From assembly GCA_018816735.1 (NCBI GenBank), contig JAHIVH010000123.1, positions 1 to 64,000 on the forward strand: 64,000 nt of DNA. The letters are read 5' to 3'. Both the position numbers and the translations under genes were made by a program. Positions 24,423 through 31,563 of this stretch are shown piece by piece. The notes under the pieces are model-generated. The model did not search any database. It was given only the letters and a program-made list of their open reading frames with translations, and was not told the origin of the DNA. Origin of the DNA: Pseudomonadota bacterium (GTDB lineage: Bacteria; Desulfobacterota; Desulfobacteria; Desulfobacterales; JAHIVH01). Position 1 is the stretch's first letter, and each line of letters starts with the position of its first letter.

Positions 24423-24457
24423 AAAAAATGCCGGAAATGGGTTTCCGGCATTTTTTT
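24423..24457 (+). terminator. Intrinsic terminator of the dehydrogenase-ThDP operon
   Basis: A 15-bp perfect stem (ATGCCGGAAA against TTTCCGGCAT, extended by A/T pairs) with a TGGG loop and a terminal T run, 55 bp behind the ThDP gene stop. Confidence 0.92.
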
Positions 24458-24505: not shown

Positions 24506-24556
24506 TTGACAGATTTCTGCCACATTGTGGTATAAGGTTATACCACGCTGTGGTAT
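24506..24556 (+). promoter_or_regulatory. Promoter with nested palindromic operator of the Met/Cys operon
   Basis: TTGACA at 24506-24511 is followed by GTATAA after 18 bp (or GGTATA after 17). A palindrome with arms GTGGTATAA and TTATACCAC separated by GG (24527-24546) covers the -10. It is flanked and overlapped by two smaller palindromes, CCACATTGTGG (24520-24530) and CCACGCTGTGG (24543-24553), whose starts are 23 bp apart, and by a further GTGGTAT (24550-24556). Binding here would block RNA polymerase. The HTH protein encoded 100 bp downstream is the natural candidate ligand. Confidence 0.78.
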
Positions 24557-24658
24557 GCTTTTTTGAAATGATCCCATTTTTTCATCACATTCAGGGACGC
24601 TGTTTTCAGGGAAAGCCATACAGAGCCATATGCAAGCGTATTTAAAAGGAGACAAGTC

Positions 24659-25039
24659 GTGGACAGTGATGAATTTGTGGGTTTCAGGAAAAAACTGAAT
24701 AAAACCCAGTCTCAAATGGCCCAGCTTCTGGGGGTTTCCGTGAAAGCGATACATAGCTATGAACAGGGGTGGCGGTCAGTACCGGCTCATGTGGAAAAAC
24801 AGATGCTGTTTCTTGTGGCAAGAGTGATGCAGAATGGAAACAGCAACAAACCCTGTTGGGAAATAAAGAACTGTCCGGATGAAAGAAAAAAAACATGTCC
24901 TGTTTTTGAGTTTGACGCAGGAAAGCTGTGCTGGATGATCAGCGGAACGCTTTGTGAAGGTCATGCCCGAAAATCGTGGCAGGAGAAAATGAAGATTTGC
25001 AGACAGTGTAAGGCGCTTATTCCGGTTTTAAAAAAATAA
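24659..25039 (+). CDS. HTH (Xre-like) regulator with two-CW cysteine domain
   Basis: A 126-aa protein starting at GTG, with AAGGAGA upstream. Residues 1-55 form a helix-turn-helix of the Cro/Xre kind (NKTQSQMAQLLGVSVKAI). Residues 62-120 form a two-CW domain: CWEIKNC, CPVF, KLCWMISGTLCEG and ICRQC, with eight cysteines that could bind zinc or an Fe-S cluster. The two-CW family occurs mainly in anaerobic bacteria and its function is not established. It is the first gene of the methionine/cysteine operon (24 bp before metY) behind a strong palindromic operator. An autoregulatory repressor sensing sulfur, metal or redox state is therefore the simplest inference. Confidence 0.8.
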   Translation: MDSDEFVGFRKKLNKTQSQMAQLLGVSVKAIHSYEQGWRSVPAHVEKQMLFLVARVMQNGNSNKPCWEIKNCPDERKKTCPVFEFDAGKLCWMISGTLCEGHARKSWQEKMKICRQCKALIPVLKK

Positions 25040-25063: not shown

Positions 25064-26326
25064 ATGATGGATAAACAAAAATTAAAGTTTGAGACCCGTG
25101 TGATTCATGGGGCCAGCATGTCTGAAGACTGGCTTGGGTCGACACTGCCGCCGATTTTTCAGACAGCGGCTCACAAACATGACACAGCTGAAAATTTAAG
25201 CTTGACCTTTGCCGGAAAAACGTCGGATCACATTTACATGAGGCTTTCCAACCCCACGAATCGGGTATTGGAAGAAAAACTGGCCGGCCTTGAGGAAGGT
25301 GCCGGCGCTGTTGTCATGGCATCTGGGATGGCCGCCATATCAAATACGTGCATGGCGCTTTTGCGGGCAGGGGATGAGTTCGTATCCGGAAGTTCGCTAT
25401 TCATGTCCACGTATATTCTTTTTACCAATATTTTCAAAAAGTATGGCATTACCGTTCGGTTTGTGGACCCGCTTGATCTGGATGCCATGGAAAAAGCGAT
25501 TAACGGCAAAACCCGTTTCATCTATCTGGAAACCATTGGAAACCCCAAAATGGATGTGCCGGATATAGCAGCCATTTCAAAATTGGCCCATGATCACGGG
25601 TTGCCTTTAGTGGTTGATAATACGCTGGCAACGCCTTATCTCTGCCAGCCTTTAAAAATTGGTGCGGATGTGGTCATTCATTCCACGACCAAATATTTGA
25701 GCGGCCATGGCAATGCATCTGGTGGCGTGGTGATAGACGGGGGAAATTTCCCCTGGCCGGAAAACCGGTTTCCGGACTTCAAGCCGTTTATCGATCGCAA
25801 AGGGAACCTTGCTTTCCTGGATAAGGTCTGGCGGGAACATCATATCAATTTCGGGACTACGCAGGCGCCGTTTCATGCCTATCTGACCATGATCGGTCTT
25901 GACACACTCGCATTACGAATGGAACGGCATCTTGAAAATGCCATGGCAACAGCCGCATTTTTGAAAGAAATACCTGAAGTCACGTGGGTCAGGTATCCGG
26001 GATTCGAGGATAACCCTTGCCATGAAACAGCCAGACGACAGTTTGGCGGAAAAGGGTTCGGTGCACTCCTTACATTCGGGTTGAAAGACCAGGCAGCATG
26101 TTTCAGATTTATCAATCATCTTGAACTGATCTGCCACCTCGCCAATCTGGGAGATTGCAAAACACTCGTCATTCATCCCTATTCGACGCAATATGTGTCT
26201 TTTGATGACAAAATGAAAGCGAGCCTTTCCATCTTTCCGGAAATGATCCGGTTATCCGTGGGGATTGAGGCAAAAGAGGATATTTTTGATGATATCAGAC
26301 GTGCACTGGACAAAACAAACACATGA
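25064..26326 (+). CDS. metY: O-acetylhomoserine sulfhydrylase (MetY)
   Basis: A PLP enzyme of the Cys/Met metabolism family, 420 aa, cytoplasmic. The likely reaction is O-acetylhomoserine plus sulfide to homocysteine, attractive in a sulfide-producing organism. Family marks are [33 protein letters not shown], the ASGMAAI motif, [13 protein letters not shown], and the Schiff-base lysine in [13 protein letters not shown]. Two ATGs lie together; the second (25067) is better spaced from AAGGAG. The stop overlaps the metX start by 4 bp. Neighbour metX supplies the acetylated substrate, which supports this call over cystathionine lyases or synthases. Confidence 0.9.
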
Positions 26327-27495
26327 GCGAATATATTGAGCATGATCAGACGTCTGTTTCCGCAGGTCTTGTAGAAAAGAAATTTTTTACGTTTGCCGGA
26401 TCGCCAGACGAGATGCCACTTGAAAGTGGCGCAAAACTGGGGCCGATTACCATTTCCTATGAGACATTGGGGACGCTCGCCCCGGATAAAAAAAACGTGA
26501 TTCTGGTCGCCCATGCGCTGACCGGGGACGCTCACATGGCAGGGGTGTATTCAACAGAGGATACCAAGCCCGGATGGTGGGATATCATGATCGGCCCGGG
26601 AAAAGGGATTGATACGGATAAATATTTCGTGATCTGCGCAAATATCCTGGGAAGCTGCATGGGCTCAACAGGACCGTCGTCCATCAATCCCAAAACCGGC
26701 CACCCCTATGGTTTTGATTTTCCGTTGGTGACCATCGGCGATATGGTCTGCGCTCAGAAAAAATTGCTGGATCATCTGGGCATTGAAAAGATTTTTTCGG
26801 TCATCGGGGGGTCGCTTGGCGGGATGCAGGTGCTGGAATGGATGGTGAGATATCCGGATAAGGTAGTCTCCGCCATTCCTCTGGCCACGACCACCAAGCA
26901 TTCGGCCCTTGCCATTGCGTTTAACGAAGTGGCGAGGCAGGCAATCATTGCTGATCCGAACTGGTGCGGCGGAAATTATTATGGCGGAAAGAAACCCGAT
27001 ATGGGGCTTGCGGTCGCCAGGATGATCGGTCATATCACCTATCTTTCCGATGAATCGATGCGCATGAAGTTTGGCAGAAAGCTGCAGGACAAAACAGATC
27101 TGTCATTTGATTTCAGTGCGGATTTTCAGGTGGAGAGTTACTTGAGATACCAGGGTGCCAAATTTGTGGAACGGTTTGATGCCAATTCTTTTTTGTACAT
27201 CACGCGGGCTGCGGACTATTTTGATCTGGAGAAAAAATATGGTGAAGGATCGCCGGTCAAGGCCTTTTCCGGGGCAAAAGCCAAAAGCCTCATTGTATCG
27301 TTTACGTCAGACTGGCTCTACCCCACGTATCAGTCAAAGGCCATGGTCAAGGCCATGAAAAAGAACGGCCTGGATGTGAGTTTCTGCGAGATTGAGGCAG
27401 AATGGGGACATGACGCGTTTCTCCTTCCCAACAAACGGCTGTCAAATTTGATCAAGGGCTTTCTGGAAGGAGTAAGACGTGAAAACGGATATTGA
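26323..27495 (+). CDS. metX: Homoserine O-acetyltransferase (MetX)
   Basis: Activates homoserine by transfer of an acyl group, normally acetyl from acetyl-CoA. The 390-aa product is an alpha/beta hydrolase: nucleophile Ser in [14 protein letters not shown], the [11 protein letters not shown] oxyanion region, [10 protein letters not shown] carrying the catalytic Asp, and the catalytic His in WGHDAFLLP. The N-terminal [14 protein letters not shown] is typical. Some MetX-like proteins use succinyl-CoA, and this cannot be settled here. It overlaps metY by 4 bp and metW by 17 bp. Confidence 0.93.
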
Positions 27496-28099
27496 TCAAA
27501 TGAGATTTGACTTGAGAATCATTGCATCCTGGATCGAACCTGGTTCAAAGATCTTAGGGCTAGGATGCGGTGATGGTGAACTCCTGCATTATTTGAAAGT
27601 TCATAAAAAGGTTCGGGAAACCGGTATTGAAATCAAGGAATCCCGGGTAGCCACCTGCATAGAAAAGGGTTTGTCCGTTCTCCAGGGGGATATCAATGAG
27701 GAGATTCTTGATTACCCGAACGATTGTTTTGATTATGTGATTTTAAGCCAGACCCTTCAACAGGTTTTTGAACCGGATGCGTTGATTAAGAACATGTTGA
27801 AGGTAAGCAGGAAAAGTATTGTGAGTTTTCCCAATTTCTGTCACTGGAAAATAAGGTTTCAGATTCTTAAGTCTGGCCATGTACCGAGAACAAGGGAGCT
27901 TCCCTATGCGTGGTATGACACACCCAATATCCGGGTCTTGAGCATTAACGATTTCAGGAGGTTTTCAAAAGAGGTCGGGTTCAAGATTTACAAAGAGGCG
28001 GCGATTAACGCGTTTGATGATGGAAAAAAAGGCAAAGTTGTCGGTGTCATGCCGAATTTTTTTGCCAGCTATGGCATTTTCATGATCGGGAAGTATTGA
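27479..28099 (+). CDS. metW: MetW methyltransferase-like partner of MetX
   Basis: A 206-aa class I methyltransferase-fold protein of the MetW family, which in proteobacteria pairs with MetX and is needed for full homoserine acylation. Visible are the [24 protein letters not shown]-binding region, [33 protein letters not shown], and [12 protein letters not shown] followed by [11 protein letters not shown]. The motif reads LGLGCGDG rather than the more usual LDLGCGDG. The start is GTG at 27479 with AGGAG upstream, overlapping metX by 17 bp, which suggests coupled synthesis of a MetXW pair. Confidence 0.93.
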
Positions 28100-28137: not shown

Positions 28138-28572
28138 ATGATGGAAATCGTTTCAATTGCAGTAAGTAAAAAAAAAGGTACTCGTAAAACAATCATCGAA
28201 GAATCCTTGTTGATAAAGGATCACGGATTGGAGGGAGACGCCCATGCAGGTCCCTGGCATCGCCAGGTGAGTTTTCTCTCCTCCGAGAACATCGAAAAAA
28301 CCAGACAGCAGGGCCTTGATGTGACTTTCGGTGATTTTGCAGAGAATATCGCCACAAAGGGTATTGACTGGAAAACCCTGCCTGTGGGTACAAAGGTGAA
28401 GCTCGGTGAATCCGCCATTGTGGAGATTACCCAGATCGGGAAAGAATGCCACAAAAAATGTGCCATCTACTACCAGGCTGGCGATTGTATCATGCCAAAG
28501 GAAGGTGTTTTTGGAAAAGTCCTTGAGGAAGGAAGGATTGTGAACGGAGACAAGATTACACTAATTAATTGA
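28138..28572 (+). CDS. MOSC-domain protein
   Basis: A single-domain MOSC protein of 144 aa. Family features are the early DHGLEGDAHAG, RQVSFLS, FGDFAENI, the PVGTKVKLG strand, and a C-terminal CHKKCAIYYQAGDCIMP segment with three cysteines, including the conserved sulfur-carrying candidate. MOSC domains are linked to sulfur transfer and molybdenum cofactor chemistry; stand-alone proteins like this are generally uncharacterised. Its place between metW (38 bp) and nadA in a sulfur operon fits a persulfide-handling role, which is inference. Confidence 0.85.
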   Translation: MMEIVSIAVSKKKGTRKTIIEESLLIKDHGLEGDAHAGPWHRQVSFLSSENIEKTRQQGLDVTFGDFAENIATKGIDWKTLPVGTKVKLGESAIVEITQIGKECHKKCAIYYQAGDCIMPKEGVFGKVLEEGRIVNGDKITLIN

Positions 28573-28592
28573 ATGATCTATTGGAGTTTGTT

Positions 28593-29648
28593 GTGGAAAA
28601 GAACAGTAACGAAAGAGAAATCATAGAGAAAATTATCGACCATAAAAACAGGCTGGGAAAGGAACTGATCATTCTCACCCATCATTATCAGAGAAAATCC
28701 ATAGTCGATGTGGGCGATTACCAGGGCGACTCGTTTGGACTGTCCCAGACAGCGGCATCAGATGCACATGCCCGGTATATTGTTTTCTGCGGCGTTCATT
28801 TTATGGCCGAGAGCGCAGCCATCCTGGCAGGTAATAACCAGATCGTGCAGATTCCCGATCCGGATGCCGGGTGCTGGATGTCGGATATGGCAGATACCAT
28901 CATGGTTGAAAAGGCATGGAACGATGTGACACATATTACCGGTAAAGACACGGTCACACCTATTGTGTATATGAATTCAGATGCCTATATCAAAGCCCAT
29001 TGCGGAGAAAATGGCGGTGTGGTCTGCACCTCATCAAACGCGCACCATGCGTTTTCATGGGCGTTTGAACGGCGCGAAAAGATATTTTTCTTTCCCGATG
29101 AACACCTGGGGAGAAATACCGGTAACCGGCTTGGCGTTTCTCCGGATGAAATGATTGTCTGGGACCCTCAAAAACCCCTTGGCGGCAATACGGAAAGTCA
29201 GATCAGGAAGAGCAAAATCATTTTATGGAAAGGGTATTGCCTGGTTCATACCCGGTTTACCGTAGCTGACATGAAGAAAAAACGGGAAGAATTTCCCGAA
29301 GCACTGATTGTCGTCCACCCGGAATGCACAGAAGATGTGGTGGCCATGGCCGATGCCACAGGCTCCACCAGTTTTATCGTGAAATACGTAAAGAATGCCC
29401 CTCCAGGCTCGACAATTATCATTGGCACGGAAATCAACCTGATTGACCGCCTGGCCGTTGAGTACACGGACCGGAAGATATTACCTTTAAAAGAGTCCAT
29501 GTGCCCCAACATGTATAAAATCAGTCCTGAAAAACTGCTTGATACACTATATCATATTGGTGAACTGAATGTAGTAACCGTACCCGAAGATACCAAGGCA
29601 GGTGCAAAACTGGCATTGGACAGGATGCTTTTGCTTCCGTCAAATTAA
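28593..29648 (+). CDS. nadA: Quinolinate synthase A
   Basis: Condenses iminoaspartate with dihydroxyacetone phosphate to quinolinate for NAD synthesis, using an oxygen-sensitive [4Fe-4S] cluster. The product has about 351 aa. Features are LTHHYQRKSIVDVGDYQGDS, the Cys-containing GGVVCTSSNA, VVHPEC, and the SMCPNMYKI region. The GTG start at 28593 is preferred because GGAG stands 6 bp upstream; a TTG at 28569 overlapping the MOSC stop would add eight residues without a ribosome site. It belongs to the Met/Cys operon, an unusual partner that may reflect the need for cysteine-derived sulfur in its cluster. Confidence 0.92.
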   Translation: MEKNSNEREIIEKIIDHKNRLGKELIILTHHYQRKSIVDVGDYQGDSFGLSQTAASDAHARYIVFCGVHFMAESAAILAGNNQIVQIPDPDAGCWMSDMADTIMVEKAWNDVTHITGKDTVTPIVYMNSDAYIKAHCGENGGVVCTSSNAHHAFSWAFERREKIFFFPDEHLGRNTGNRLGVSPDEMIVWDPQKPLGGNTESQIRKSKIILWKGYCLVHTRFTVADMKKKREEFPEALIVVHPECTEDVVAMADATGSTSFIVKYVKNAPPGSTIIIGTEINLIDRLAVEYTDRKILPLKESMCPNMYKISPEKLLDTLYHIGELNVVTVPEDTKAGAKLALDRMLLLPSN

Positions 29649-29675: not shown

Positions 29676-30629
29676 ATGAGCAATATCTTAGAAACAAAAC
29701 CTATAGAGGCATGCCAGCTTGAAACAGAGAAGGTGTCACGCTTTCGGGATCAACTTCCTGAGAAAATAGAAAAAATCGTGGCCAACTGTTATGACAAGAC
29801 ATGCCACAACCATATTGATTATGATCCGCTCCCTTCCAGAGAATCGGTTATCCGGATTATTGAAAAGATGCGGGAAATTCTCTTCCCTGGATATTTCAGT
29901 GAAGAGCGTGTTGATCCTGCCAACCTGAAATACAGCATCGGCCAGTCTGTCTCGCTTGTATATGATATGCTAAGCGTCCAGATTACGGACAGTATCCGGT
30001 ATGAATGTTTGCGGTATAACAAGGAATGCAGCCAGTGCAGCGATCAGGGGCATCAGTTCACCCTTTATCTTCTGGACGGCATTCCTGAAATCAGACGGCA
30101 ATTGTCCACAGATGTGGAGGCCACATATACAGGTGATCCGGCTGCTAGAAGTTATGATGAGATTATTTTCAGCTATCCGGGCGTATTTGCCACTGCCGTA
30201 TACCGGGTCGCGAACCGTTTGTTCGAACTTGGAGTGCCGCTTCTTCCCCGGATGATGACCGAATATGCGCATAGCATAACCGGTATAGATATTCATCCGG
30301 GTGCTGAAATCGGAGACGGGTTCGTGATTGATCATGGTACGGGTGTGGTCATCGGCGAAACCACCATTATCGGAAATAACGTGCGCATTTATCAGGGCGT
30401 GACCATCGGTGCCTTGTCTCTTCCCAAGGAAGCAGGCGAAAAGTTCAGGGGGAAGAAAAGACATCCAACCATAGAAGATAACGTCATTGTCTATTCCGGC
30501 GCAACCATTCTTGGCGGTGACACGGTGATTGGTGCACGGTCCGTTATCGGCGGCAATGTGTGGCTGACAAAGTCCATACCGCCGGATACGCGGGTACTGA
30601 TAGAAGAACCACGGCTGGTCTATAAATAA
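29676..30629 (+). CDS. cysE: Serine O-acetyltransferase (CysE/EpsC type)
   Basis: Makes O-acetylserine from serine and acetyl-CoA, the substrate of CysK. The 317-aa product has a helical N-terminal half and a C-terminal left-handed beta-helix of hexapeptide repeats (about 205-310). The active-site stretch includes GIDIHPGAEIGDGFVIDHG, GVVIGET and GVTIGALS. The N-terminal domain is longer than in E. coli CysE, as in many anaerobe EpsC-like enzymes. A ribosome site AAGGAGCAAGGA precedes the ATG. It is 16 bp ahead of cysK, as expected for partners of the cysteine synthase complex. Confidence 0.92.
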   Translation: MSNILETKPIEACQLETEKVSRFRDQLPEKIEKIVANCYDKTCHNHIDYDPLPSRESVIRIIEKMREILFPGYFSEERVDPANLKYSIGQSVSLVYDMLSVQITDSIRYECLRYNKECSQCSDQGHQFTLYLLDGIPEIRRQLSTDVEATYTGDPAARSYDEIIFSYPGVFATAVYRVANRLFELGVPLLPRMMTEYAHSITGIDIHPGAEIGDGFVIDHGTGVVIGETTIIGNNVRIYQGVTIGALSLPKEAGEKFRGKKRHPTIEDNVIVYSGATILGGDTVIGARSVIGGNVWLTKSIPPDTRVLIEEPRLVYK

Positions 30630-30645: not shown

Positions 30646-31563
30646 ATGATCTATTCACACATTGGCGAAACCATCGGTAGAACACCCCTTGTCAGACTGA
30701 ATAAATTGACAGAAGGACTTCACGCGACCATTCTGGCCAAACTTGAATTCAAAAATCCGCTGGGCAGTGTGAAGGACAGGCTGGGGAAGTCTCTGATTCA
30801 GGATGGCGAGGAACGGGGACTGATCAGCAAAGATACCCGGATTATCGAGCCCACCAGCGGGAATACAGGGATCGGCCTTGCGTTTCTCTGCGCAGTCAAA
30901 GGATATCAATTGACCCTGACCATGCCTGAGACCATGAGCGTGGAAAGACGGAAGCTCCTGACACATATGGGTGCGGAGATTGTCCTGACGCCCGGTTCAA
31001 TGGGGATGAAAGGGGCCATCGAAAAAGCCGGAGAACTGTTTGCCGCATCAGATAATGCCTATATTCCCAACCAGTTCTCCAACCCGGCCAATCCGAAAAT
31101 CCATCGGGAGACAACCGCGGAAGAAATATGGCAGGATACAGAAGGTGAGGTGGATATATTTGTCGCAGGCGTGGGCACCGGCGGAACCATTACCGGTGTC
31201 TCCCAGGTGTTGAAGAAAAGAAAACCCGGATTCAAATCGGTTGCCGTGGAACCCGCAGGTTCACCGGTACTCTCCGGAGGCAAACCAGGCCCACATAAGA
31301 TACAGGGCATTGGCGCCGGATTCGTGCCCGAAGTCCTTGACCGGTCTGTCATAGATGAAATCGTGACCGTAACCAATGATGAGGCATTTGAGATCGCGCG
31401 TGCCCTTGCCAAAAAAGAAGGCCTGCTTTGTGGCATTTCATCCGGGGCGGCTGTTTCTGCTGCCATGAAAATTGCAAAACGGGCTGACTCAGTGGGAAAA
31501 ACAATTGTCGTGATTCTGCCAAGCACCGGGGAGCGGTATATGAGCACGGAGCTTTTTGTTTGA
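30646..31563 (+). CDS. cysK: Cysteine synthase A
   Basis: O-acetylserine sulfhydrylase of 305 aa, a PLP fold-type II enzyme combining O-acetylserine and sulfide to cysteine. It shows the Schiff-base Lys in [11 protein letters not shown], the substrate loop [13 protein letters not shown], the phosphate-binding [10 protein letters not shown], and [10 protein letters not shown] followed by [13 protein letters not shown]. The length is standard. AGGAG lies 7 bp before the ATG. It is the last intact gene of the operon; no strong intrinsic terminator is seen before the pseudogene that follows. Confidence 0.95.

Follow-up and report, generated by a model that had tools for sequence, protein, structure and literature searches.

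A candidate Xre-type regulator with a two-CW cysteine domain, and its putative operator, at sulfide-assimilation genes of Desulfobacterales

Sulfate-reducing bacteria flood themselves with sulfide, and little is known about how they control the channelling of this sulfide into cysteine, methionine and Fe-S clusters. IscR and CymR, both of the Rrf2 type, regulate Fe-S assembly and cysteine synthesis, and MqsA is an antitoxin in which an HTH is joined to a cysteine-rich metal domain and which exerts autorepression by way of a palindrome. The regulators of methionine genes known in Proteobacteria are MetJ, MetR, SahR, SamR and riboswitches (PMC4239095). SahR and SamR are transcription factors, the former being found in the delta-proteobacterial orders Desulfovibrionales and Desulfuromonadales (PMC4239095). 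In Geobacter and Desulfuromonas met genes are controlled by the SAM-I (S-box) riboswitch, and an earlier survey of delta-proteobacteria reported S-boxes for methionine and described no regulatory protein for it (PMC545781). The published regulon studies of delta-proteobacteria that we found deal with SahR and with SAM riboswitches, and the orders they cover are Desulfovibrionales and Desulfuromonadales (PMC4239095, PMC545781).

Here we describe a locus in a 64,000-nucleotide stretch of a genome of the Desulfobacterales (contig JAHIVH010000123.1, positions 1 to 64,000; hereafter the window). For the Desulfobacterales, the locus provides a defined candidate regulator together with a putative operator and regulon, all of which can be tested directly. 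The predicted regulator, an HTH/two-CW protein, resembles SahR and SamR as a putative transcription factor of methionine genes, but those proteins have an ArsR fold, an SAH ligand and a 20-bp palindrome, whereas the protein described here has an Xre HTH, a cysteine domain and a 15-bp palindrome; the lineages and targets differ as well. With IscR and CymR it has in common predicted targets of the nifU/nifS-like and cysK/cysE/metY-like kinds, and cysteine-based sensing is plausible for it, but it gave no match to an Rrf2 domain in Pfam or NCBIfam and differs in its fold, operator and sensor domain. MqsA, whose HTH is among the nearest by sequence, is similar in the joining of an HTH to a cysteine domain and, we infer, in autorepression by a palindrome. 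The order of its domains is reversed, however, and the HTH/two-CW protein scores below the cut-offs of both MqsA models, has no toxin gene beside it and has a putative regulon of sulfur genes. The SAM-I riboswitch does the same physiological job in related bacteria but is an RNA, and a search of the whole genome for it (RF00162) found none, in agreement with the preliminary description of the locus, in which no SAM riboswitch was noted. Searches of the open-licence literature found no earlier description of a regulator of this type and no use of the term "two-CW domain", and they returned the core operator string only in unrelated papers.

The HTH/two-CW protein and its operon

The regulator gene (24659-25039, forward strand) encodes 126 amino acids from a GTG start codon, closely preceded by the ribosome-binding site AAGGAG (24646-24651, forward strand). 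The protein consists of an HTH_3/Xre domain at about residues 4-57 (PF01381, 26.4 bits against a cut-off of 23) and a two-CW domain at residues 65-120 (NF045718, 52.3 bits against a cut-off of 35), each above the curated threshold of Pfam or NCBIfam. The HTH matches in Pfam were of the HTH_3 type only, and an ArsR-type HTH was absent. The preliminary description had proposed a fusion of an Xre-like HTH to a two-CW domain with eight cysteines; the fusion holds, but the cysteines number seven (C66, C72, C80, C91, C99, C114 and C117), with CW motifs at C66-W67 and C91-W92 and five further cysteines. A comparison of 46 homologues revealed that six of the seven are invariant and that C99 is nearly so. 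An AlphaFold2 model of the protein (pLDDT 90, pTM 0.81) has a confident HTH and a compact C-terminal domain. When this model was compared with the PDB using Foldseek, only HTH proteins were retrieved, among them Aca2, HigA2 and MqsA, and none had an E value below 0.001. The C-terminal domain had no relative in the PDB by sequence and no match in Pfam. The two-CW proteins found in the window's own genome are the regulator and a paralogue that is 58% identical to it, and there were none in 14 control genomes. We consider the preliminary proposal very probably correct in kind, the protein representing a new family of Xre regulators with a new operator and with the two-CW domain as its putative sensor. 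It is the conservation of the cysteines that suggests a sensing role for the two-CW domain, which has no solved relative.

The regulator gene heads a series of genes on the forward strand that, from metY to cysK, are narrowly spaced or overlapping: a metY-like gene of the O-acetylhomoserine sulfhydrylase family (25064-26326; PF01053), metX for a homoserine O-acyltransferase (26323-27495), metW (27479-28099), a gene for a MOSC-domain protein (28138-28572), nadA for quinolinate synthase (28569-29648), a gene for a cysE-type serine acetyltransferase (29676-30629) and cysK for cysteine synthase A (30646-31563). This gene order, as originally described, was borne out by matches in Pfam and NCBIfam (NCBIfam for the cysE-type gene). 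The metY product scores 446 bits against TIGR01326, under the cut-off of 495, and is therefore assigned here at the level of the family. Across genomes, two types of MetY occupy the same slot behind the regulator, one approximately 70-75% and the other approximately 40% identical to that of the window. The MOSC-domain gene, too, recurs in operons of the regulator (16 of 106 loci), at times as the sole recognised neighbour, and its product may have a role in sulfur trafficking rather than in the use of molybdenum cofactor. Between the metY operon and an upstream gene for a TPP enzyme is a strong hairpin with T-runs on both strands (24423-24456), which is probably a two-way terminator.

A 15-bp palindrome at the promoters of the regulator genes

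The promoter of the operon has a -35 box, TTGACA (24506-24511, forward strand), and a candidate -10, TATAAG (24531-24536, forward strand), at a spacing of 19 bp. TATAAG is the probable -10, although a consensus scanner did not list it; the alternative, TGGTAT at 24528-24533, would give a spacer of 16 bp. Superimposed on the promoter are two tandem copies of a putative operator, whose consensus is the 15-bp palindrome TRCCACANTGTGGYA, with centres 23 bp apart. Operator 1, TGCCACATTGTGGTA (24518-24532, forward strand), lies between the -35 and the -10 and overlaps the start of the latter, and operator 2, TACCACGCTGTGGTA (24541-24555, forward strand), lies 23 bp downstream at the probable start site of transcription. 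The -10 is thus covered by palindromes, as had been noted from the outset, but the two tandem copies of TRCCACANTGTGGYA read better than the nested arrangement built on CCAC and GTGGTAT that was then proposed. In keeping with this, the 20-bp perfect palindrome GTGGTATAAGGTTATACCAC (GTGGTAT-N6-ATACCAC) was rejected as the operator: it occurs in perfect form nowhere else in the genome and is for that reason best seen as a by-product of the tandem 15-mers. Tandem pairs 23-24 bp apart are also present upstream of the orthologue from the same genus (locus L044), of the paralogue in the window's own genome (L003) and at a further locus (L048). No Rfam family reached its gathering score anywhere in the window and a permissive Rfam search of the promoter gave no credible match, and on this ground we set aside control of the metY operon by a riboswitch or RNA leader.

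To assess conservation we scanned the 300 bp upstream of 115 regulator genes, with dinucleotide shuffles as background. An operator with at most two mismatches was present at 85 of the 115, as compared with approximately 0.35 expected. The matches to TRCCACANTGTGGYA were exact in 26 cases and had one mismatch in 35 (0.05 expected) and two mismatches in 24 (0.3 expected). Absence of the palindrome from orthologous promoters had been named beforehand as an outcome that would count against the proposed regulator, and these results show the reverse. The letters of the arms are conserved, and not their pairing alone, and outside the promoter boxes the flanks of the operator in these promoters display no conservation. 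Of the 85 promoters with an operator, 45 have a perfect TTGACA that ends 3-6 nt ahead of it; the commonest distance is 4 nt, at which the -10 falls on the operator's right end. The operator is found at the regulator's own promoter even when no sulfur gene follows.

Sites elsewhere in the genomes were identified by pattern search rather than with a PWM. In 96 related genomes the exact 15-mer occurs at 50 sites, as against one for a reversed control, and TTGACA-N4-9-CCACANTGTGG at 27, again as against one. An exact operator was present in 21 of 40 regulator-positive genomes and in 2 of 56 regulator-negative genomes (Fisher p = 2e-8), and one of the sites in the two exceptions (G056 and G060) falls within an ORF.

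Gene neighbourhoods and sites in trans

Besides the 40 of 96 related genomes, most of the genomes compared being MAGs, the GTDB genome collection has the regulator in at least 571 stretches, and the best 80 of these come almost entirely from Desulfobacterota-type MAGs (Desulfobacterales, Desulfobulbales and Desulfatiglandales). Pooled tblastn matches yielded 116 non-redundant loci, of which 106 had enough downstream sequence for a count of linkage. A sulfur-assimilation gene lies within 4 kb of the regulator in 70 of the 106, a number that may miss further sulfur genes, since neighbours were detected by similarity to a chosen list. The next gene is metY or metX in 43 loci, metY, metX or metW is downstream on the same strand in 48, cysE or cysK is near 26 and nifS or nifU is near 17. 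Adjacency to metX is far above chance, given that a random gene would be directly upstream of metX in well under 1% of cases by our own estimate from the size of the genome. Thus, homologues unlinked to sulfur genes, the other adverse outcome named in the preliminary description, are not the general case, although about one-third have no recognised sulfur gene nearby and some of these adjoin Hdr-like, phsA-like, nikR or peptidase genes. The metX gene itself is present in 26 of the 40 regulator-positive and 10 of the 56 regulator-negative genomes (p = 3e-6).

In a tree of the family, which was built from few columns and has rough supports, the loci with sulfur genes nearby are dispersed; on the well-supported branches alone, the "met" label must have changed at least seven times and the "nif" label at least four times. 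The link to sulfur genes therefore appears to have been remade repeatedly rather than inherited once. A clean division into met-type and nif-type branches was discarded, as the contexts are mixed on the tree. So too was mutual exclusion of riboswitch and regulator among the 96 genomes, as the SAM-I riboswitch occurs in 10 of them and is not exclusive of the regulator.

The window's own genome has six places at which the operator matches TACCACANTGTGGTA with at most one mismatch. Two are in the window promoter, two are between the divergently oriented paralogue and nifU, and another is upstream of a DUF39 gene, 6 nt after a TTGACA. The sixth, inside a tetR-like ORF, was set aside. The matches at C35 and those with two mismatches are within ORFs and were discounted as due to chance. 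The product of the DUF39 gene belongs to HcyBio, a homocysteine biosynthesis family (PF01837, 530 bits), and in Desulfovibrio DUF39 together with a NIL/ferredoxin partner makes homocysteine (PMC5764234). In the relatives, operators with no regulator gene adjacent precede metY-metX (L106/L240 and L117, in G006 and G031), metY-metX-metW (L247, in G047), cysK (L242, in G081), nifU-nifS (L248, in G001), YcaO (L240 and L255, in G006 and G034) and a ThiF-JAB-sulfite/nitrite reductase cluster (L254, in G063). An operator also precedes cysE-cysK-regulator (L245) and a DUF39-NIL/ferredoxin operon (L266) located upstream of the regulator gene in G037. No operator was found before metX in those regulator-negative metX genomes that had approximately 1.5 kb of upstream sequence. 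The original proposal of a regulator of methionine and cysteine synthesis is thus supported by linkage (70/106), by the operator (85/115) and by co-occurrence, but the putative regulon is broader, extending to nifU-nifS, DUF39-NIL/ferredoxin, YcaO and a puzzling set of copper and metal genes. As to YcaO, the operator is followed by YcaO-TPR proteins near an mnmA-like gene in L240 (site 5137) and near a cysK-like gene in L255 (site 3566), sites that we offer as a lead for a role of YcaO in sulfur assimilation.

Of the exact operators found in relatives, about half are in front of genes with functions other than sulfur assimilation, among them genes for multicopper oxidase, Cus-type efflux, Metal_resist, YHS, OsmC and DoxX proteins. 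Exact copies of TRCCACANTGTGGYA are located before multicopper oxidases (L235 and L260, in G071 and G087), an OEP-CusB-RND efflux operon (L249, in G002), a Metal_resist protein (L243, in G070) and YHS proteins (L236, in G009), and all five of these genomes are regulator-positive. Either members of the regulator family sense soft metals or the site is common to another regulator.

Proposed mechanism and alternative explanations

We observed the domains of the protein, its gene linkage, the conservation of the operator and its position in promoters, its presence in the same genomes as the regulator, and sites in trans before genes of matching function. To account for these observations we propose, with a probability of about 70%, that the HTH/two-CW protein acts as a repressor of the Xre type on sulfide assimilation and on its own gene, that it binds the 15-mer and represses by doing so, and that it senses its signal through its cysteines. 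A dimer would sit by its HTH domains on TRCCACANTGTGGYA, 3-6 nt past the -35 and reaching into the -10, and its occupancy of the operator would keep RNA polymerase off the promoter; repression in the window would be tightened by another dimer, bound to operator 2 at the start site. The two-CW domain, with its seven conserved cysteines, would be the sensor: under a shortage of fixed sulfur, or on loss of or damage to its metal or cluster, the regulator would be released from the DNA, allowing expression of the operon for the conversion of sulfide to homocysteine and cysteine. Further copies of the operator, together with the paralogue, would apply the same logic to Fe-S assembly (nifU-nifS) and to the DUF39 route to homocysteine. 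Since the common theme of the targets is the passage of sulfide into homocysteine, cysteine and Fe-S clusters, the natural signals would be the status of sulfide or cysteine, of clusters or of thiophilic metals. With this proposal there is, for the first time, a specific candidate role for the uncharacterised two-CW domain, and also a readout for a ligand search.

A thiophilic-metal signal gains weight from the exact operators before copper-type genes in regulator-positive genomes. Indeed, the same regulator could respond principally to a thiophilic metal, copper above all, or to damage to thiols or Fe-S clusters, the sulfur and nifUS genes then being induced for repair alongside copper defence. 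The operators in the five genomes listed above, and one before an OsmC gene (L267), are in keeping with such a signal, and the seven-cysteine domain would fit soft metals or clusters. On the other hand, the operators found in the window's own genome include no copper-type site, the genes adjoining the regulator are predominantly those of sulfur biosynthesis, and the copper sites may belong to another regulator, so that we regard a metal or damage signal as possible but doubtful. In another reading the operator is owned by a different transcription factor, with the HTH/two-CW gene simply one of its targets, which would accommodate both the exact copies in G056 and G060 and the half of the regulator-positive genomes that have no exact copy. 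The strength of the co-occurrence (21/40 versus 2/56), the presence of the operator at the regulator's own promoter irrespective of a following sulfur gene and the location of one of the two exceptions inside an ORF all argue against this, and we judge it quite improbable.

The position of the operator bears on the sign of regulation. Promoters with a 19-bp spacing are also used by DNA-remodelling activators, and operator 1, which lies between -35 and -10 elements separated by 19 bp if TATAAG is the -10, is placed as in such promoters and could serve an activator or dual regulator. In most homologues, however, the operator begins 4 nt past TTGACA, which creates a near-normal 17-bp spacer with an overlapped -10, the classical position for a repressor, and most of the HTH relatives retrieved are repressors or antitoxins; we therefore consider activation unlikely. 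The palindromes might instead act as RNA, with operator 2 and the TTTTTT that follows it forming an intrinsic terminator or leader element, and 24539-24557 does appear as terminator-like in a scan. We rejected this reading of operator 2, since the tandem sites of L044, L003 and L048 lack the T-run. The element would, moreover, be at the extreme 5' end of the transcript, its arm letters are conserved beyond what pairing requires and it has no match in Rfam, which together make a function as RNA very improbable. Equally little commends the idea that the HTH is the remnant of an MqsA-like antitoxin with no tie to sulfur control, which we find barely credible: the matches to MqsA models that suggest it are weak and below the curated cut-offs (PF15731, 21.6 against 30; TIGR03830, 27.7 against 61.8), the neighbours are metY and the TPP-enzyme gene rather than a toxin gene, and linkage to sulfur genes is repeated across loci.

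Returning to the repressor that we favour, its family might have a wider role. We suggest tentatively, at somewhat short of an even chance, that this undescribed family of cysteine-domain Xre proteins is a main regulator of organic-sulfur and Fe-S biosynthesis in Desulfobacterales and their relatives, that its two-CW domain reads sulfide, Fe-S or thiophilic-metal status, and that homocysteine and cysteine synthesis, NifUS, DUF39 and copper defence form a single regulon.

Finally, we note two further sets of genes that recur with the regulator or its operator. Operons for a universal stress protein and a GAF-domain protein have the same operator (L127 and L266/L111), and in L127 the GAF protein itself continues into a cysteine motif of the CW type. 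A PhnD-like binding protein and a large sensor-like membrane protein are found around the regulator or operator in several loci (L063, L137, L140 and L239): in L063 the pair immediately precedes the regulator gene, in L239 it follows an exact operator, and in L137 and L140 the large membrane protein is upstream of the regulator gene. The pair is possibly a system for sensing a sulfur compound; farther downstream, L063 and L137/L140 have phsA-like molybdopterin reductases.
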